From: Thiomicrorhabdus sp. 6S3-12
GTDB lineage: Bacteria; Pseudomonadota; Gammaproteobacteria; Thiomicrospirales; Thiomicrospiraceae
Assembly: GCF_017571475.1 (NCBI RefSeq)
Contig: NZ_JAGETW010000002.1
Coordinates: 1 to 64,000, forward strand
Reading direction: 5' to 3'
DNA: 64,000 nucleotides
Made by a program: the position numbers and the translations under genes. Each line of letters starts with the position of its first letter. Position 1 is the stretch's first letter. This document shows, piece by piece, positions 4,667 through 63,841 of the stretch. A model generated the notes under the pieces. It was not told the DNA's origin. It saw nothing but the letters and a program-made list of their open reading frames with translations, and did not search any database.

Positions 4667-5087
4667 TTCTTTAGTTACAAGACTCTGGTTTATTTTAGTG
4701 GCGATGATCTATTTCGATTGCAACACGACGCCCTTGATTGCATATTTCTGCAAGCGAATGCGCGTGCAAAACGTTCCGGAAAATAATCCAAGAAACTTCC
4801 TGGCGTAGAATCCCGTTAATCGAACGAGGGAGTATTCTAATAGTATAACTAATCGCTCAAGATAAAAGATTTAAATACCCTCTTTTATCAGGGGTTATGC
4901 TAATAAGAACTTAAAAAAACAAAAGGTTACTGCGATTGTAAATCCATTTTATCGATCCGTGCGGCTTTCCGTTTATAGCCGTTTTCTTTTATTCGCTTTT
5001 TTAAGCGATCAATTCATCACGATTCGTCAGATTATGTACGCCTAAAAGTCATCCACATCAACTTTACAATAGCGAAGTGCGCATAAA
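4667..5087. other. Intergenic region with inverted repeat
   Basis: This 421-bp AT-rich spacer lies between the divergent GGDEF-EAL and P-type ATPase genes. At 4861-4889 a perfect 9-bp inverted repeat, GATAAAAGA and TCTTTTATC with an 11-nt centre, could be a repressor operator or a hairpin. It has no U-tract or GC-rich stem, so it does not look like a terminator. I see no additional gene. Confidence 0.5.
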
Positions 5088-7874
5088 ATGAAACTCTTCT
5101 CACAGGCATTCAACAGCAAAGGCCTTCTCGATAAGAAAACGGAGCCTCAGGTGAAAGACGTCCCTCACTCGCAATATTCTCTGCCGATTCCCGAACTTTT
5201 TCGTGCCTACGAGACTTCCGAACAGGGTCTTTGTGAAGACGAAGTCCTAAACCGACAATTCGAATTCGGTCACAACAGGCTACCGATGGCTCCGCCTAAA
5301 CCGGCATGGTTGCGTTTTGCCAGACAGTTTCATAATGTTTTGATCTATGTCCTGATTATCAGTGCTCTTATCAGCTTCTTTCTTGAACACTATGTGGACG
5401 CCGGAGTGATTTTCGGCGTGGTTATCATCAATGCACTGGTCGGATTCATTCAGGAAGGTAAAGCTGAAAGCGCTTTGCAGGCCATTATGTCCATGACCAC
5501 AACTCAGTCGATGGTGATTCGCGAGGGAATCCTGAAATCGATAGACAGCGCTGAACTGGTTCCCGGGGATATTATTGTTCTGCAGGCCGGAGACCGGGTT
5601 CCGGCTGACGTCCGACTCTTTTTCAGCCGGGATCTGCACTGCGACGAATCCGCTCTGACCGGTGAATCCCAACCGAGCAGTAAACATCTCCGTCTTCTGC
5701 AAGCCGACACGCCTTTGGCCGACCGGGGAAATATGGCGTTTATGGGCACCATGGTCACCCACGGTTTCGCCCGCGGTCTGGTCACGCAAACGGCAAGCGC
5801 CACCGAAATCGGTAAAATCAGTACACTTGTGGAACGAGTGCAGATCTCACCGACGCCAATGCAGGTTCAGTTATCACGTTTCGCCCGGCAATTAACCGCT
5901 GGCATCATTCTGTTTTCCACGCTCACTGTCCTGTTCGGCATCTTTTTTCACGACTTTCATCTGGCGCAGATGTTTCAGGCGGCCATCGGCATCGCCGTTT
6001 CTTCCATCCCAGAAGGTCTGCCGGCCATAGTCACCATATCTTTGGCCATCGGCGTTCAGCGAATGGCTGACAACCGAGCTCTGGTTCGCCGTCTGCCCTC
6101 AGTGGAAGTTCTCGGTTCCGTCGACGTCATCTGTACCGATAAAACCGGAACCTTGACCAGCAATGCCATGACAGTCCGGGAAGTCTTTATGCTGGATCGT
6201 TCCTATCGGATTCATGGAGAAGGCTACTCCCCGGAAGGCTATGTCGAACGTCTCGATAACGGTGACAAAGTCTTGATGAATCAGGATTCGGCGTTTACCC
6301 TGCTTTGCTCAATCGGTATGCTTTGCAACGAAGCGAGCCTGACGCTCAAAGACGGCGAATGGGCAATGTACGGCGATCCGACCGAAGGAGCCTTGCTGAC
6401 GCTGGCGGCTAAACACGGACTCAACGCGGTAAACCTGCAACAACTCTGGCCCAGAATTGATGTACTGCCTTTCGAAAGCGAACAGCGCTATATGGCCACC
6501 CTGCACCACAATCAAGAAGGTGCAATCCGTTTAATGGTCAAGGGTGCACCGGAAAAACTCCTCGAGTGCGCCAAATATGAAATGCAGAACGAGAATCTTG
6601 TGCCATTGAATGAAACCAAATGGCGGGAGGCTATGGATAAGTTTGCGCATAAAGGAATGCGCGTTATGGCGTTGGCTTATAAAGACCTTGAACACAAACC
6701 CGAAACGCTTAAGCACAAAGACGTTGAACAAGATCTGGTTCTGGTCGGTCTGGCAGCGATCAGTGATCCGCCTCGCCCCGAAGCGATCGAAAGTGTTCGA
6801 CTCTGCCATCAGGCGGGAATCACCGTCAAAATGATTACCGGAGACAATCCGGTCACCGCCGCAGCGATCGGCGAGGAACTGGGCTTGGACAGCAGCCGAA
6901 TCATGACCGGTCAGGATATCGACCGACAAAGTGATCAGGAACTGGCGCAACAGGTTGAAAAAACGCATATCTTCGCACGTACCAGTCCGGCCAATAAGCT
7001 GCGACTGGTTGCCGCCCTTCAACAGAATCGGCATATTGTTGCCATGACCGGCGACGGCGTTAATGACGCCCCCGCTCTGAAAAAAGCGGCTATCGGTGTC
7101 GCCATGGGCCATAAAGGCACCGATGCGGCAAAAGAAGCCGCAGACTTCGTGCTTACCGACGACAACTTCAGAACCATTACCCGTGCGGTAGCCGAAGGCC
7201 GCACTGTATATGACAATATCGTCAAGTCGATTATCTTTATCTTGCCGACCAGCCTGGCCGAAGCGATGGTTATTGTCACGGCGATATTCCTGGGAAGCGT
7301 CATGCCGATCACCCCCGCACAGATTCTTTGGATCAATATGGTGACCACCATTACCTTGGCGCTGGCTTTAGCGTTTGAACGTTCGGAACCGAACATCATG
7401 CTGAGAAAACCGCGTCCGTACAACCAGAGCCTGTTTACCTACGCTCTGCTGCTCAGGTTGATTATGGTCGGAGCCCTGGGCGCTTTGATTGTCTTTTCTC
7501 TGTTTAACTACTATCTGTTACACGGCGAATCCATCGACTTTGCCAGAACCGTGGCGGTCAATGCCCTGGTGATGATCGAAGCCTTTTACCTTTTTAATTG
7601 CCGTTTTCTGACCGACTCGATTTTCAACCGCCAGTTTTTCAGAGGCAGTGTACCGGCCGTAGCCGCCGTTATCGGCGTGGTGTTGCTGCAAATCGGCTTC
7701 ACCTACTACCCCGGCACCCAGTCTCTCTTTGAGTTGGAATCGCTTCCGCTGCATGACTGGCTGGTGATTGTACTGTCCGCTTTTCCGATACTGTTTATCG
7801 TCGAGCTGGAAAAATGGTTTCACCGACGCTTCGCGTCTGACAGGACAATCTCGCCTTCAACAAGCGTTCACTGA
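5088..7874 (+). CDS. P-type cation-transporting ATPase (P2, SERCA/PMR1-like)
   Basis: This 928-residue ATP-driven membrane pump has an N-terminal cation-ATPase domain, about ten membrane helices, the actuator motif TGES (191-194), the phosphorylation motif DKTGTLT (Asp351), TGDN (near 583) and GDGVNDAP (near 655). PEGLP (308-312) in helix 4 places it in the P2 (calcium pump-like) group. Some transport-site residues differ from SERCA: helix 6 reads WINMVTTITLALALAF, where SERCA has Asp800 after NLVT, and helix 5 has Ser-Leu-Ala-Glu at the Asn768/Glu771 position. The ion is therefore uncertain (calcium, manganese or a monovalent cation). The gene lies 15 bp before the metallo-beta-lactamase gene and is probably cotranscribed with it. 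Confidence 0.9.
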   Translation: MKLFSQAFNSKGLLDKKTEPQVKDVPHSQYSLPIPELFRAYETSEQGLCEDEVLNRQFEFGHNRLPMAPPKPAWLRFARQFHNVLIYVLIISALISFFLEHYVDAGVIFGVVIINALVGFIQEGKAESALQAIMSMTTTQSMVIREGILKSIDSAELVPGDIIVLQAGDRVPADVRLFFSRDLHCDESALTGESQPSSKHLRLLQADTPLADRGNMAFMGTMVTHGFARGLVTQTASATEIGKISTLVERVQISPTPMQVQLSRFARQLTAGIILFSTLTVLFGIFFHDFHLAQMFQAAIGIAVSSIPEGLPAIVTISLAIGVQRMADNRALVRRLPSVEVLGSVDVICTDKTGTLTSNAMTVREVFMLDRSYRIHGEGYSPEGYVERLDNGDKVLMNQDSAFTLLCSIGMLCNEASLTLKDGEWAMYGDPTEGALLTLAAKHGLNAVNLQQLWPRIDVLPFESEQRYMATLHHNQEGAIRLMVKGAPEKLLECAKYEMQNENLVPLNETKWREAMDKFAHKGMRVMALAYKDLEHKPETLKHKDVEQDLVLVGLAAISDPPRPEAIESVRLCHQAGITVKMITGDNPVTAAAIGEELGLDSSRIMTGQDIDRQSDQELAQQVEKTHIFARTSPANKLRLVAALQQNRHIVAMTGDGVNDAPALKKAAIGVAMGHKGTDAAKEAADFVLTDDNFRTITRAVAEGRTVYDNIVKSIIFILPTSLAEAMVIVTAIFLGSVMPITPAQILWINMVTTITLALALAFERSEPNIMLRKPRPYNQSLFTYALLLRLIMVGALGALIVFSLFNYYLLHGESIDFARTVAVNALVMIEAFYLFNCRFLTDSIFNRQFFRGSVPAVAAVIGVVLLQIGFTYYPGTQSLFELESLPLHDWLVIVLSAFPILFIVELEKWFHRRFASDRTISPSTSVH

Positions 7875-58796: not shown

Positions 58797-58826
58797 TTGA
58801 GTTTTTAAAAAACTCCGTGCTATAGT
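58797..58826 (+). promoter_or_regulatory. Putative sigma-70 promoter of the metal ABC operon
   Basis: TTGAGT (58797-58802) and TATAGT (58821-58826) are 18 bp apart, 69 bp upstream of the binding-protein gene. The AT-rich dyad at 58857-58869 would lie in the leader, where a DtxR/MntR repressor could bind. Confidence 0.45.
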
Positions 58827-58894
58827 TTAAGAAAAATTATTTTTTAGCTGCAACTAACTTTTTAAGTTTGCAATAACGAACCAGGATTAAAATC

Positions 58895-59812
58895 ATGGCA
58901 AAGTTGCTCCTGAGCACCCTGTTTATTACCCTAATCGGCCTAAGCCCGCTGGCCCATGCACAATTAAAGATCACGGTAACGACCGGAATGATCGCCGATC
59001 TGGTTAGCCATATCGCCAAGGATAAAGCCAAAGTACAGGCGCTGATGGGTGTGGGAGTCGATCCTCATCTATATAAGGCGACTCAGGGAGACGTCCGTAA
59101 ACTGAGCCGGGCGGACATTATTTTTTACAACGGTCTGCACCTGGAAGGCAAACTGCAGCCGATTCTGCAAAAAATGCAACGCCGCAAGACCGTTATCGCC
59201 GTCACTGAAAATTTCCCGGAAACACGCTTAATCACCTTTGACAAACTCCACGATCCCCACGTCTGGTTTGATGTCAGTCTGTGGGAACTGGCCGCCAAAG
59301 AAGTGCAGAAGACCTTGACCGAAAAAGACCCGGAAAACGCCGCTTTCTATCAGCGCAATGCCGAACAATACCGTGCCAGACTGAATGAATTGCATCAATG
59401 GGTTAAACAGGAAATGCAGAAGATTCCTCTGGCCAAACGCGTACTGATCACCGCGCACGACGCTTTCGGCTACTTCGGTAAAGCCTATGACCTTGAGGTT
59501 ATGGGACTGCAAGGCATCAGCACCGCCGGAGAATTCGGCCTGCAGGATATCAAGCAGCTCAAGGATGTGATTGTCGCCCGCGATATCTCCGCGGTGTTTG
59601 TCGAATCCAGTGTCTCGCCGAAGTTTATCGAATCTCTGGTTAAAGGCGTTCAGGCCGAAGGCAAGCAGCTAAGAATCGGCGGCGAACTCTATTCCGATGC
59701 GATGGGCGCCAAAGGCTCGGATGCAGACACCTATATCAAAATGGTCAAACATAACGTTCATACCATCCGCAACGGACTTCTGGGCAAGACAACAGAACAG
59801 GAAACCCACTAA
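58895..59812 (+). CDS. Metal ABC transporter substrate-binding protein (TroA/ZnuA family)
   Basis: This 305-residue periplasmic binding protein has a clear signal peptide (cleavage likely after LAHA at residue 22). Candidate metal ligands are His58 (VDPHLYKATQ), His122 (HDPHVWFD), the His of AHDAFGYFGKAY and the Asp of LYSDAMG, a TroA-like set that binds manganese or zinc. There is no His-rich loop of the ZnuA type. The regulator features in the same operon favour manganese. Its stop abuts the ATPase start (TAA ATG). Confidence 0.9.
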   Translation: MAKLLLSTLFITLIGLSPLAHAQLKITVTTGMIADLVSHIAKDKAKVQALMGVGVDPHLYKATQGDVRKLSRADIIFYNGLHLEGKLQPILQKMQRRKTVIAVTENFPETRLITFDKLHDPHVWFDVSLWELAAKEVQKTLTEKDPENAAFYQRNAEQYRARLNELHQWVKQEMQKIPLAKRVLITAHDAFGYFGKAYDLEVMGLQGISTAGEFGLQDIKQLKDVIVARDISAVFVESSVSPKFIESLVKGVQAEGKQLRIGGELYSDAMGAKGSDADTYIKMVKHNVHTIRNGLLGKTTEQETH

Positions 59813-60604
59813 ATGACAGATCGAAGCGCCATTCCGCTGAAAGTGGAACAACTCAGCATCCGCTATCACCATAAACCGGTTTTAACCGATGTCAGTTTCG
59901 AGGTTCCGGCCGGGAAAACCGTCGCGATTATCGGTCCGAACGGAGCCGGAAAATCGTCGTTGCTTAAAGGAATCATGGGGCTGACGCCGGTCATTCAGGG
60001 ACAGGCTCTGTTCTTCGGCGAACCGCTGGATAAGAAACGCCTTACGACCGCTTATGTTCCGCAGCGCGAAGAAATTGACTGGGATTTTCCAATCGACGTA
60101 ATGGATGTGGTGCTGATGGGTCGTCACGGTCAGCTCAAATTCTGGCAGAGGCCAAACCAGAACGACCGGGATATAGCCGAAAAGGCGCTGTGGGATCTGC
60201 AGATGTCGGATTTCAGCGACCGTCAGATTTCGCAACTTTCCGGCGGTCAGCAACAACGCGTTTTCCTGGCCAGAGCTCTGGCGCAGCAGGCCAGCCTGTA
60301 TTTGATGGATGAACCTTTTGCCGGTGTTGATGTCGCCACGGAAAAGGCAATTATTGAATTGTTCAAACAGCTTAAAGCCCAAGGCAATACCGTGGTCTGT
60401 GTCCACCACGATCTGAATACCGTTCACGAATATTACGACTATGCCGTTTTGATCAATGCCAGACTGATCGCCGCCGGGCCGGTAGACGAGGTTTTGACGA
60501 AAGACAATCTCAATAAGACTTACGGCGGCCGCCTGTCTCTGCTCAACGAAATGACCGAGCAGCTATACCGCAGCCAGCTTAATCAGGCACACGATCAGGA
60601 TTAA
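59813..60604 (+). CDS. Metal ABC transporter ATP-binding protein
   Basis: This 263-residue ATPase energises the uptake system. Walker A is GPNGAGKSS, the signature is LSGGQQQRVFLARAL, and Walker B is LYLMDEPFAGVD, followed by VHHDL. It directly follows the binding-protein gene and lies 2 bp before the permease gene, as in troB. Confidence 0.93.
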   Translation: MTDRSAIPLKVEQLSIRYHHKPVLTDVSFEVPAGKTVAIIGPNGAGKSSLLKGIMGLTPVIQGQALFFGEPLDKKRLTTAYVPQREEIDWDFPIDVMDVVLMGRHGQLKFWQRPNQNDRDIAEKALWDLQMSDFSDRQISQLSGGQQQRVFLARALAQQASLYLMDEPFAGVDVATEKAIIELFKQLKAQGNTVVCVHHDLNTVHEYYDYAVLINARLIAAGPVDEVLTKDNLNKTYGGRLSLLNEMTEQLYRSQLNQAHDQD

Positions 60605-60606
60605 TC

Positions 60607-61962
60607 ATGCAAGGTTTTGAAGTATATTCGGACGCCTCCCTCTGGCAGCAGACCCTTGAGCAACTGGCGCTGTTCTGGTCATTTGAAGACGTCAACGCCA
60701 CCTGGGTTCTCGTCGGCAGTCTGCTGTTAGGCATGAGCGCCTCGGTAATCGGCGCTTTCGCATTCCTGCGCAAACGATCTCTGCTCGGCGACGCCTTGGC
60801 GCATGCCGCGCTGCCCGGCGTTATGATGGCGTTTCTGCTCAGCGGCAGCCGGGATGCCGAAGTGATCTTTGGCGGCGCCCTTCTCAGCAGTTTACTCGGT
60901 TTCTGGATTATCGACTGGCTGCCAAAAAACACCAAAATCAAACCGGATGCCGCTCTGGCGATTACGCTCTCCTTTATGTTCGCCTTAGGTTTGATGCTGT
61001 TGTCGCTGATTCAAAGTACCGATATGCCGAACAAGAGCGGTCTGGATAAACTGCTTTTCGGTCAGGCTGCGGCAATCACCTCCGAAGACATCCAATTGCT
61101 GGTGTATGTCACTTCGGCGGTATTGATTACCGTCATCCTGTTTTTCGATAAATTCCGTCTGATCGCTTTTAACCGCCTGTATGCGCAAACGCTGGGGGTC
61201 TCCGTCAGATTCTATGAATTCCTGCTGGCCCTGATGATTGTGCTTTCGGTGGTGGTCGGCCTGCAACTGGTCGGCGTGGTACTGATGGCGGCAATATTGT
61301 TAACACCGATTGCAGCCGCGCGCTTCTGGAGCCATCAACTCAGTTATCTGCTGCTTCTGGCAGGGATATTCGGAGCGCTCAGCGCCTCCATCGGCGCGCA
61401 GATTTCCTATATCGCTCCGGCAATGCCGACCGGCCCGTGGATTGTCGTCAGCCTGTCGTTGGTGTTTTTCATCTCCTTTCTGGTCGCGCCGCAAAACGGA
61501 CTGATCAAACGTTACCTGGACTACCGAAGATTACGCCACAGAGTCGCTCAGGAAAATATTCTGCGCACGCTCCATAAGCTTTTGGAGCGTAACCACTTTA
61601 AGCGCAATGACTTTACCGTCGCGCAAATTACCGCTTTGCGAAACATTCAGATTCAGACACTGAAACAGACCTTGAAGCAGTTGCAGAAACAGGGGCTGGT
61701 TCGTGAACTGGGCGGCGGTTTTGCCTTAAGCGAAGCCGGCTTAAGACGGGCGATCGAACTGACCCGTCGCCATCGCCTGTGGGAGAGTTATCTGAGCCAG
61801 CATGCCGATTTGACTTCGGAGCAGGTGCACCAGCAGGCCGAGCATATGGAGCATATTCTGAATCAGGAACATGAAGAACAGATCGTCGCCGAACTGATGC
61901 AACGCCTGTCCGACCCGCACGGCCAGCCGATTCCACCGAAAAATACGCTTGAGGAGCAGTAA
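60607..61962 (+). CDS. Metal ABC permease fused to a DtxR/MntR-type repressor domain
   Basis: Residues 1-297 are an ABC-3 (TroC/ZnuB family) permease with about eight or nine helices. After a basic linker (298-314), residues 315-445 form a winged helix followed by a metal-binding and dimerisation domain of the iron-dependent repressor family. Positions equivalent to DtxR ligands are kept: His389 (H79), Glu393 (E83), His408 (H98), Glu412 (C102), Glu415 (E105) and His416 (H106), and the DPHGQPIP loop is present. Glu at the C102 position is typical of manganese-type MntR. The first-helix Asp of MntR appears as Asn317. Chlamydial YtgCR has the same fusion and is cleaved to free its repressor. Confidence 0.9.
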   Translation: MQGFEVYSDASLWQQTLEQLALFWSFEDVNATWVLVGSLLLGMSASVIGAFAFLRKRSLLGDALAHAALPGVMMAFLLSGSRDAEVIFGGALLSSLLGFWIIDWLPKNTKIKPDAALAITLSFMFALGLMLLSLIQSTDMPNKSGLDKLLFGQAAAITSEDIQLLVYVTSAVLITVILFFDKFRLIAFNRLYAQTLGVSVRFYEFLLALMIVLSVVVGLQLVGVVLMAAILLTPIAAARFWSHQLSYLLLLAGIFGALSASIGAQISYIAPAMPTGPWIVVSLSLVFFISFLVAPQNGLIKRYLDYRRLRHRVAQENILRTLHKLLERNHFKRNDFTVAQITALRNIQIQTLKQTLKQLQKQGLVRELGGGFALSEAGLRRAIELTRRHRLWESYLSQHADLTSEQVHQQAEHMEHILNQEHEEQIVAELMQRLSDPHGQPIPPKNTLEEQ

Positions 61963-61965
61963 GCC

Positions 61966-62886
61966 ATGCCGAGTATTGAAAACTGGATTCTCGATCTGTG
62001 GATTATCGCCACGGCATCACTGGTCGCCGCCTCCTGCGCCATGGTCGGTGTCTTTCTGATCCTGCGCCGTCAGGCATTGATGGGTGACGCCATTTCGCAT
62101 TCCGTTCTGCTGGGAATTGTTCTGGCTTATCTGCTGGCCGGCACCAATACATTATGGGTTATGTTGACCGGCGCGGTGATTATCGGCTTGCTTACCGCCT
62201 GGCTCAGCGAAAGCCTGCATAAGCTCAGTCGTCTGCAGAGCGATGCCAGTATCGGAATTGTCTTCACCCTTTTCTTCTCGATCGGTGTCATTCTGGTATC
62301 GCTCTATACCGGACATATCGATCTCGATCAGGAGTGCGTTTTATATGGCGAAATTGCCTTCGTCCCTTTCGACACGGTGATCTGGGGGGATATGGAGACC
62401 GGAACAGACTTGGGACCACGCGCTTTCTGGTTGATTCTGATCGTTTTTACCTTAGTCGCTCTAAGCATCGCGATTGGATTCGAACGTCTGAAAACGGTGA
62501 CTTTCCATCCGAGTCTGGCGGTTTCTCTGGGCATCAACATCACCTTCTGGCATTACTTCCTGATGACGCTGGTGTCGATGACCACGGTCGCTTCTTTTGA
62601 TGCCGTCGGCGCCATTCTAGTGGTCGCCCTGTTGATTATCCCAGCCAGTAGCGCCTACCTGCTTGCCACCTCGCTCAAAAGAATGCTCTGGCTGGCTATC
62701 GCCTACTCGCAAGGTTCTGTCTGGATCGGCTACGCCCTTTCCTACTGGCTGGATAGCTCGATCGCCGCCTCGATTGCGGTCAGCGCCGGAGCCCTTCTGG
62801 CATTGACGCTGATGGTAATTCAAATACGTAAATGGATTCAGCAGCAACACTACGCCAAACAACTCCAATCGGGAGAAAGTGCTTAA
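61966..62886 (+). CDS. Metal ABC transporter permease
   Basis: This 306-residue second permease is of the ABC-3 family (TroD-like), with about nine helices and the conserved LILRRQALMGDAISHSVLLGI segment. It has no regulator domain. It would pair with the fused permease to form the channel. Its stop overlaps the regulator start (TAATG). Confidence 0.92.
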   Translation: MPSIENWILDLWIIATASLVAASCAMVGVFLILRRQALMGDAISHSVLLGIVLAYLLAGTNTLWVMLTGAVIIGLLTAWLSESLHKLSRLQSDASIGIVFTLFFSIGVILVSLYTGHIDLDQECVLYGEIAFVPFDTVIWGDMETGTDLGPRAFWLILIVFTLVALSIAIGFERLKTVTFHPSLAVSLGINITFWHYFLMTLVSMTTVASFDAVGAILVVALLIIPASSAYLLATSLKRMLWLAIAYSQGSVWIGYALSYWLDSSIAASIAVSAGALLALTLMVIQIRKWIQQQHYAKQLQSGESA

Positions 62887-63569
62887 TGTCTCAGGCACAG
62901 AAAAACACGCCGTCGCAGGCATGGGAAGACTATCTCAAAATCGTCTATAAGCTGGAAGACAATACACGCGAAGACAAAGGCGTTCAGACCAAGGACATCG
63001 CCGAACGTCTGGCCGTATCGCAGGCTTCGGTAACCAATATGCTTAAAAAACTGGCCGAACAGGGGTATCTGGAATATGAACCTTACTACGGGGTGACCCT
63101 GACCGGACATGGCCGAAAAGTGGCGATGAAGATGATCCGCAATCACCGGATTCTCGAACTTTATCTGGTCGAGCGTCTGGGTTATCTGTGGGATGAAGTG
63201 GATGAAGAAGCGGAAACGCTGGAACATTACCTCTCCGACAAGCTGGTGGATCGTATGTGGCAGGACCTCGGCCAGCCGACGCAGGATCCGCATGGATCAC
63301 CGATTCCGAGTGTGGACGGCAAAATCGAACGCAAAAACCTGACGCCCCTGTCCGAGATCGAACTGCATCAACCGGTGACGCTGGAACGCATTAAAAACCG
63401 AAGCCCGGAAGAGCTACGCTATCTGACCTCAATCGAACTGCATATCGGAGCCCAAATCGAGATTAAAAACCGTGCCCCGCTCAACGGTCCTCTACTGATC
63501 GAGGTAGACGGCAAGGCGTTGCACGCCATCGACTACCGTCTGGCTATGGCTCTGCAAGTCAAAGCCTAA
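62886..63569 (+). CDS. DtxR/MntR-family metal-dependent transcriptional regulator
   Basis: This 227-residue stand-alone repressor has an N-terminal winged helix (about 10-75, DIAERLAVSQASVTNMLKKL), a metal-binding and dimerisation domain (about 78-145) and a C-terminal SH3/FeoA-like domain (about 155-227). Ligand positions equivalent to MntR are Asp15, His87, Glu110, Glu113 and His114; Glu at the DtxR Cys102 position suggests manganese sensing. Lys18 replaces MntR Glu11. It ends the operon, as troR does in Treponema. ATG 62886 overlaps the permease stop; an upstream extension of the frame lies inside the permease gene. Confidence 0.92.
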   Translation: MSQAQKNTPSQAWEDYLKIVYKLEDNTREDKGVQTKDIAERLAVSQASVTNMLKKLAEQGYLEYEPYYGVTLTGHGRKVAMKMIRNHRILELYLVERLGYLWDEVDEEAETLEHYLSDKLVDRMWQDLGQPTQDPHGSPIPSVDGKIERKNLTPLSEIELHQPVTLERIKNRSPEELRYLTSIELHIGAQIEIKNRAPLNGPLLIEVDGKALHAIDYRLAMALQVKA

Positions 63570-63580
63570 ATAGCTTTAGC

Positions 63581-63841
63581 CTAAGATTCTTTAAATATCT
63601 CCGGTTTAAGGCGGTAACACTCAATAATTCCCTGCACACGGCTCAAACAGTTACCGCACCCGGTTGATGCGCCGGTTGTTTTCTGTAGACAGTGCACCAT
63701 TTCCTCGACCGGCTCCAGCTGTGGATTTTCAGGAAGTTGCTGTAACAACTGATCCAGAGTGACATGATGACAGGTGCAGATCAGCGGGTTTTCGCCGACC
63801 AGCATCTGCACATAGCTTTTTTGACAGAGATGTAAATTCAT
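63581..63841 (-). CDS. BFD-like [2Fe-2S]-binding protein
   Basis: This 86-residue protein has Cys22-X-Cys24 (ICTCHHVT) and Cys62-X2-Cys65 (GCGNC), the ligand pattern of bacterioferritin-associated ferredoxin and the BFD domain of nitrite reductases. It may mobilise iron from bacterioferritin or act as a small electron carrier. The N-terminal extension of about 20 residues is longer than E. coli Bfd. It converges with the metal-regulator gene 11 bp away, which fits a metal-homeostasis context. Confidence 0.82.
   Translation of the reverse strand: MNLHLCQKSYVQMLVGENPLICTCHHVTLDQLLQQLPENPQLEPVEEMVHCLQKTTGASTGCGNCLSRVQGIIECYRLKPEIFKES

Follow-up and report, generated by a model that had tools for sequence, protein, structure and literature searches.

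Why should one permease of a metal importer carry at its C-terminus a domain of the type that represses transcription, when a separate regulator of the same kind is encoded beside it? The question is raised by a stretch of 64,000 nucleotides from Thiomicrorhabdus sp. 6S3-12 (hereafter the window), in which the following features were delineated:

58797..58826, forward strand: sigma-70-like operon promoter TTGAGT-18-TATAGT, assigned from its consensus match only
58843..58858, forward strand: MntR-box-like palindrome TTTAGCTGCAACTAAC, directly downstream of the -10 hexamer (leave-one-out weight matrix score 9.8)
58895..59812, forward strand: substrate-binding protein gene, ZnuA family of Pfam (PF01297, E 5.6e-81)
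59813..60604, forward strand: ABC ATPase gene (PF00005), nearest to manganese MntA and manganese/iron models
60607..61962, forward strand: permease subunit with fused DtxR/MntR-type domain, 451 aa (Pfam, AlphaFold model, Foldseek)
61501..61959, forward strand: the DtxR/MntR-type domain, residues 299-451 (AlphaFold model, PDB sequence match)
61648..61683, forward strand: recognition-helix segment of that domain, residues 348-359, not conserved among fused proteins (entropy)
61771..61854, forward strand: metal-ligand region with H389, E393, H408, E412, E415 and H416 (identical in 36/36 family members)
61966..62886, forward strand: second permease subunit, with no fused domain (PF00950, E 1e-49)
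62886..63569, forward strand: separate MntR-type regulator with winged helix, metal domain and FeoA domain (PF01325, PF02742, PF04023)

A binding protein, an ATPase and a second permease accompany the ABC-3 domain of the fused protein, as in other ABC-3 metal importers, and the operon probably encodes a manganese (or Mn/Fe) ABC importer. The top NCBIfam models for the ATPase are NF053840 and NF011630, both at E 1.1e-69 and each under its own cut-off. In the consensus scan, the promoter matches at 9 of 12 positions and has a TG ahead of the second hexamer.

The fused gene is a single open frame, within which Pfam assigns residues 32-293 to ABC-3 (PF00950, E 1.7e-61) and residues 376-443 to Fe_dep_repr_C (PF02742, E 8.8e-20); a permease and a C-terminal DtxR-type domain are joined in one frame, as in the chlamydial protein YtgCR. 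PF01325, the family for the N-terminal winged helix, gave no match in the same scan with E allowed up to 0.1. When compared with PDB sequences by phmmer, PsaBC matches residues 35-301 and ScaR residues 316-448. An AlphaFold model built from 8 sequences is of middling quality (mean pLDDT 76.8, pTM 0.55), with block values of 79-90 across residues 301-430 and only 65 at the joint, residues 291-300. It contains a winged helix (helices 299-328, 338-344 and 349-361, strands 365-368 and 371-374) followed by three metal-domain helices (376-399, 404-417 and 420-430), and helix 299-328 starts only a short way behind the last membrane helix, 275-293. The concern that the C-terminal part might lack a winged-helix fold is thereby removed. 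Foldseek matches the model to PsaBC (7kyp, E 1e-12), and its tail to the manganese repressor DR2539 (8pvt, E 7.2e-6; rmsd 2.1 across 134 columns) and to IdeR. By descent and by fold, the tail belongs to the DtxR/MntR family, though PF01325 fails to match it, and the gene at 60607-61962 is confirmed as an ABC-3 permease-DtxR/MntR-type fusion. The original prediction is upheld both in this and in placing the fusion next to a separate regulator.

A frameshift or an assembly error that fused two genes would give the same appearance. As the fused gene is conserved in 37 of the 62 genomes of the family, it is not a sequencing error; tails of fused length in 78 of the 80 named loci described below point the same way, nothing was found in support of a merger, and such an artefact is now exceedingly improbable. 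The genome search at order level returned the same 62 genomes as that at family level, in which the first permease is fused in 37 and unfused in 11, while 14 are without the operon. One of the 37 fused genes is cut by a contig end (G044), and was left out of the family conservation table, which covers the other 36. The unfused genes, which are without the tail, fall into two groups that stand apart on the permease tree: G011 with G012, and genus g6. Of 369 genomes in a sample of the class, 17 had a match at E <= 1e-30, and beyond the family the fusion with its metal domain occurs in five genomes (G118, G206, G108, G145 and G268).

A wider scan of contigs yielded at least 593 matching stretches, of which 80 named loci were kept, none of them chlamydial. 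Among the matches listed, the tail is 151 aa or longer in 78 of the 80; the titles of the loci include Thiomicrorhabdus, Hydrogenedentota, Verrucomicrobia, Planctomycetes, Chlorobiota, Gemmatimonadetes, Latescibacterota, Bacillus relatives and others. The architecture survey bears out the fusion and shows it to be neither uncommon nor limited to Chlamydia, where the original prediction had placed its one well-studied parallel, YtgCR: as excerpted, a review (PMC5599777) credits Thompson et al. (2012) with finding orthologous permease-repressor fusions in 11 phyla. The permease-DtxR fusion is a conserved, already known kind. In the titles and opening lines of abstracts in the open-access literature, only the Chlamydia papers and reviews were recognised as dealing with fusions of this kind or with the tail.

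Ligand-complete tails, with Asp allowed at 408 and 412, account for 63 of the 78 among the matches listed, and residue 317 of these 63 is Asn in 51 and His in 12. The recognition helices of the named tails look unlike one another by eye. Stand-alone regulators were sought for 50 of the 80 named loci, and in 40 of 42 genomes with a ligand-complete fusion another, shorter PF02742 frame is present, which was classed as a stand-alone regulator purely on its length; the short frame of G848 holds a stop, leaving 39 of 42 intact. The fused and stand-alone classes both exclude the frames of 368 aa (G844) and 379 aa (G812) and the 60-aa fragment of G820. Only G825 and G838, MAGs by their titles, have no shorter frame. 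On this count the fusion is seldom the sole predicted DtxR-type gene in its genome.

In 11 of the 80 loci, among the matches listed, both permeases carry a DtxR-type domain (L149, L152, L155, L156, L165, L175, L189, L198, L204, L205 and L212; a weak second-tail match of 20 bits in L194 was left out). By title these come from Planctomycetes, Phycisphaerae, Latescibacterota, Gemmatimonadetes, Omnitrophota and a deltaproteobacterium. The metal-ligand residues are found in both permeases, except that 412 is Asn or Gln in two copies of the second; residue 317 is varied, and in 10 of the 11 pairs position 408 is Asp in the first permease and His in the second. Such double fusions place two predicted domains under one transporter.

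Other tails have lost the metal site. All 15 named tails from Bacillota, among the matches listed, have a broken ligand set, with E415 lost in each, and profile comparison of these 15 with the ligand-complete tails indicates homology (probability 99.9, E 2.4e-33). Another 16 tails from other proteobacteria, aligned out of 26 seen, match the fused tails of the family (profile probability 96.4, E 1.4e-9); the recognition segment is missing from them in the profile alignment, and by eye they have lost most of the ligands. Two of the broken-ligand tails were run against Pfam, and neither received a label. With the ligand set broken, metal-dependent repression looks impossible in these tails, which are nonetheless retained.

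The promoters of the family bear on whether the fused domain represses its own operon. Upstream of the binding-protein gene lies a palindrome with the family consensus ATTAGCCTAGGCTAAT, often right behind a -10-like TATAGT (seen by eye in the family and by the consensus scan in the window). Promoter scores were obtained for 45 of the 48 operon-bearing genomes of the family (34 of the 37 with the fusion and 11 of the 11 without; G037, G040 and G044 were left out), using a matrix trained on the 42 genomes with a stand-alone MntR, each promoter's own site being left out, and 200 dinucleotide shuffles per promoter. The presence of MntR was established by a search with PF02742 and confirmed by a second with the MntR of the window. 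All 42 promoters from genomes with MntR have a box, the best site scoring between 7.6 and 23.9, and 40 of them score above all 200 of their shuffles. The two weak boxes are those of G041 (score 7.6, 10 of 200 shuffles as high) and of the window (score 9.8, 2 of 200 as high), the latter being the second weakest of the 42. A box is present in all 11 genomes with an unfused permease, and all of these are among the 40 strong promoters. In the matrix scan of the three promoters from genomes lacking MntR, none has the box: G006 scores -4.7, with 89 of 200 shuffles as high, G021 scores -7.1 (177 of 200) and G039 scores -1.6 (103 of 200). The association of box with MntR has a Fisher p of 7e-5 when the 45 promoters are treated as independent of kinship; with kinship likewise ignored, p is 7e-4 if the two weak boxes are counted as absent and 1e-3 if G021 is omitted.

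Searches with PF02742 and with the MntR of the window found no other DtxR-family gene in G006, G021 or G039, all of which keep the fusion with its metal ligands. As these genomes occupy three separate places in the permease tree, MntR has apparently been lost on three occasions. Taken at face value, the pattern would have MntR, and not the fused domain, read the palindrome. For boxes of the recognised type, in these 45 promoters, presence tracks MntR rather than the fusion, which speaks against repression through this box by the fused domain. The repressor at 58843-58858 is quite probably not the fused domain, and the case against a repressor role appears moderately well supported. The fused domain might have shifted, in the three genomes without MntR, to an operator of an unrecognised type.

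Some peculiarities of these genomes should be recorded. In G021, from which MntR and the box are both absent, the binding-protein gene is split into two overlapping frames (L039, 7440-8374) and the end of the fused domain is altered; the operon may be decaying, or the sequence may contain an error. G039 is a draft genome, 93% complete, in which an imperfect CAGTT-AACTG repeat can be seen by eye at the position of the box. Counts of the box over whole genomes, made with a 15-base pattern allowing one mismatch, gave 3 matches in G006, 27 in G021 and 24 in G039. These are dominated by chance, and the counts were not used, because in most genomes a reversed control pattern matches as often or oftener.

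A second line of evidence comes from the parts of the fused domain that vary. N317, H389, E393, H408, E412, E415 and H416 are identical in all 36 aligned family members, and the conservation claimed in the original prediction for the last six is borne out. These six of the seven positions are as in the DtxR/MntR family; the seventh, in the first helix, is Asn, at a position that we take to be that of MntR D8 and DtxR M10. It had been interpreted as a degraded ligand, a description ill suited to a residue that is fixed throughout the family. In the 17 genomes for which both the fused gene and MntR were in hand, entropies of the two were paired. For the recognition helix, residues 348-359, the fused domain averages 1.82 bits against 0.19 in MntR, and for the wing 2.30 against 0.66, while the first helix (0.61 against 0.45) and the metal domain (0.98 against 0.46) differ less; over the whole domain the values are 1.22 and 0.59 bits, the fused domain varying more everywhere. 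Ranked by excess variation over MntR, the top three windows of 12 residues are 349-360, 347-358 and 348-359, all at the recognition helix. The excess for 348-359 is 1.63 bits, a value reached by 0.0004 of random residue sets. Hence the constrained recognition helix of a DNA-binding regulator is not found in the fused domain; relative to MntR of the same genomes, this helix is, on these alignments, the least constrained part of the domain. Fixed ligands combined with a variable DNA helix imply that the metal pocket and first helix are kept, and that the DNA-reading surface is free to vary.

We lean, if only by a little, towards the view that the fused domain descends from a DtxR/MntR-type repressor and has become a cytosolic metal sensor acting on its own manganese (or Mn/Fe) importer, by trans-inhibition; that it gates transport is, taken by itself, an evenly balanced proposition. 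The separate MntR would repress the operon at the palindrome, to judge from the way the box follows MntR, and the fused domain would read cytosolic metal and slow the transporter when metal is high. The metal would be bound by H389, E393, H408, E412, E415 and H416 together with Asn317. In DtxR/MntR proteins, metal closes a clamp between the first helix and the metal domain. Here the same clamp would operate without DNA: the putative stalk helix 299-328, which bears Asn317 and is modelled almost immediately behind the last membrane helix, would be clamped to the metal domain and so restrain the permease. The stalk is a weakly grounded idea, given the pTM of the model and the low pLDDT of the joint. 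The mechanism uses the parts that selection has preserved (the pocket, the first helix) and has no need of those that it has let go (the DNA helix, the wing). An added cytosolic domain with conserved residues predicted to bind metal, as would be looked for in a trans-inhibited importer, is present.

Several observations count against a metal switch. From the tails with broken ligands it is clear that the domain can be kept without metal, and this would also suit a scaffold. DtxR-type domains normally dimerise; only one of the two permeases in the window carries the domain, and a single domain may need a partner. The fused domain is more variable than MntR throughout. Finally, there is the analogy of YtgR, which at a similar size (139 aa) is reported in the excerpted Chlamydia papers to bind DNA and to be cleaved. 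A YtgR-like second repressor, released or tethered to the membrane, and acting when metal-bound on its own operon or another target, would share architecture and size with YtgCR, the C-terminal 139 aa of which repress and are cleaved (PMC6504234, PMC5599777 and PMC7755916, as excerpted); the predicted structure keeps the full winged-helix fold, and in G006, G021 and G039 the fusion is the one DtxR-family gene that was found. Yet these same genomes lack the box along with MntR, all 11 unfused genomes examined have it, PF01325 does not match the fused protein, and the recognition helix and wing vary freely where those of MntR are nearly fixed. Nor is there a conserved start codon from which the domain could be made separately: among 36 genes, 18 have an in-frame ATG or GTG at residues 295-330, most often at Val313 (17 of 36), and the gene in the window has none. 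A second repressor is judged unlikely. Of the three roles originally proposed, the tethered and the released repressor have lost ground, since it is MntR that the box accompanies and the DNA helix is relaxed, while a metal-gated regulator of transport would be the one to favour.

The tail could instead be a structural part or a metal buffer, supporting assembly, contacting the ATPase or holding metal as it exits the channel, with no feedback on transport. Retention of tails with broken ligands in all 15 Bacillota loci and in the 16 aligned proteobacterial cases, the latter also without a recognition segment in the profile alignment, is what such a role would allow. It accords less well with seven ligand positions strictly conserved in 36 of 36 family members and with the ligand-complete state of 63 of 78 named tails, which favour metal sensing over mere shape, and two clades of the family (G011 with G012, and genus g6) manage without any tail; this explanation is rather unlikely. 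Extending the proposed metal sensor beyond the family is tentative, and falls somewhat short of an even chance: the widespread permease-repressor fusions would be mostly metal-operated brakes on manganese importers, paired in some phyla, with broken-site shells in Bacillus-type MntC and some proteobacteria, and YtgR would be the exception that kept or regained control of DNA. If the brake exists, a repressor domain would have been re-used as a post-translational control on the transporter of its own regulon, which would explain how uptake could stop faster than transcription permits, and the MntC of Bacillus would gain a tail of known ancestry that Pfam leaves unlabelled.

The closest described relative is YtgCR of Chlamydia trachomatis (CT069/CTL0325). 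It too belongs to a metal importer, is encoded in the importer operon and joins an ABC-3 permease to a DtxR-type domain, of about 139 aa, at the C-terminus. As excerpted, the sources describe this C-terminal part as an iron-dependent repressor that is cleaved in Chlamydia and in E. coli, and YtgR as the sole identified iron-dependent regulator of Chlamydia (PMC6504234, PMC5599777, PMC7755916). By contrast, the window has a separate MntR, it is with MntR that the box occurs, and the DNA helix of the fused domain shows no constraint; YtgCR enters this comparison by its description rather than its sequence. The work on YtgCR, the one fusion of this kind for which the literature search turned up experiments, led to the suggestion, in the excerpted text of the review, that a released-repressor mechanism may exist across bacteria (PMC5599777), and the evidence from this free-living lineage points the opposite way. 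Compared with DtxR, MntR, ScaR and IdeR, the fused domain shares the winged helix and metal domain, with H389, E393, H408, E412, E415 and H416 in register, and differs in being membrane-attached, in having Asn at the first-helix ligand and a variable recognition helix, and in lacking a third (FeoA/SH3-like) domain.

The proposed sensing of substrate by an added cytosolic domain has an analogy in MetNI and ModABC, in which, according to the excerpted text of PMC10710835, such a domain detects the substrate being carried and holds the transporter back; the domains come in pairs, as do those of the double fusions. Those domains are on the ATPase subunit and of another fold, whereas that of the window is on the permease and of DtxR type. 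The MntC type of Bacillus, represented by a 439-aa frame of B. spizizenii (L202), is alike in having a homologous tail on an ABC-3 permease and unlike in its broken ligand set, E415 being lost in 15 of 15. Its homology is argued from the profile comparison, since the fold match is weak: the model of the L202 tail finds its best DtxR-type match at E 4.5e-4 with an rmsd of 7.2, and its top match is a MarR-type protein. Pfam leaves this tail (4814-5296) unlabelled, reporting ABC-3 and FecCD only. B. subtilis MntC presumably has the same tail, given its close kinship to that of B. spizizenii. In the excerpted text of PMC9993123, mntABCD is expressed constitutively in a B. subtilis mntR mutant, which is what a non-repressing tail would lead one to expect. 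The terms 'DtxR', 'cytoplasmic domain' and 'regulatory domain' do not occur in the available text of a paper on the Bacillus manganese importer (PMC8487065).

Three minor observations may be added. The fused permease of L164, titled as a Klebsiella pneumoniae MAG, resembles those of Verrucomicrobia by eye, and its contig is perhaps mis-binned or mislabelled. A further unfused ABC-3 permease of the same genome, outside the window (G000:C12:214214-214960), has 34% identity over residues 31-290, and might, at a guess, belong to a zinc importer. Within the window, an iron-related gene adjoins the probable manganese operon: a BFD-like [2Fe-2S] protein (PF04324, E 3e-7) is encoded on the reverse strand at 63581-63841, tail to tail with the MntR gene.
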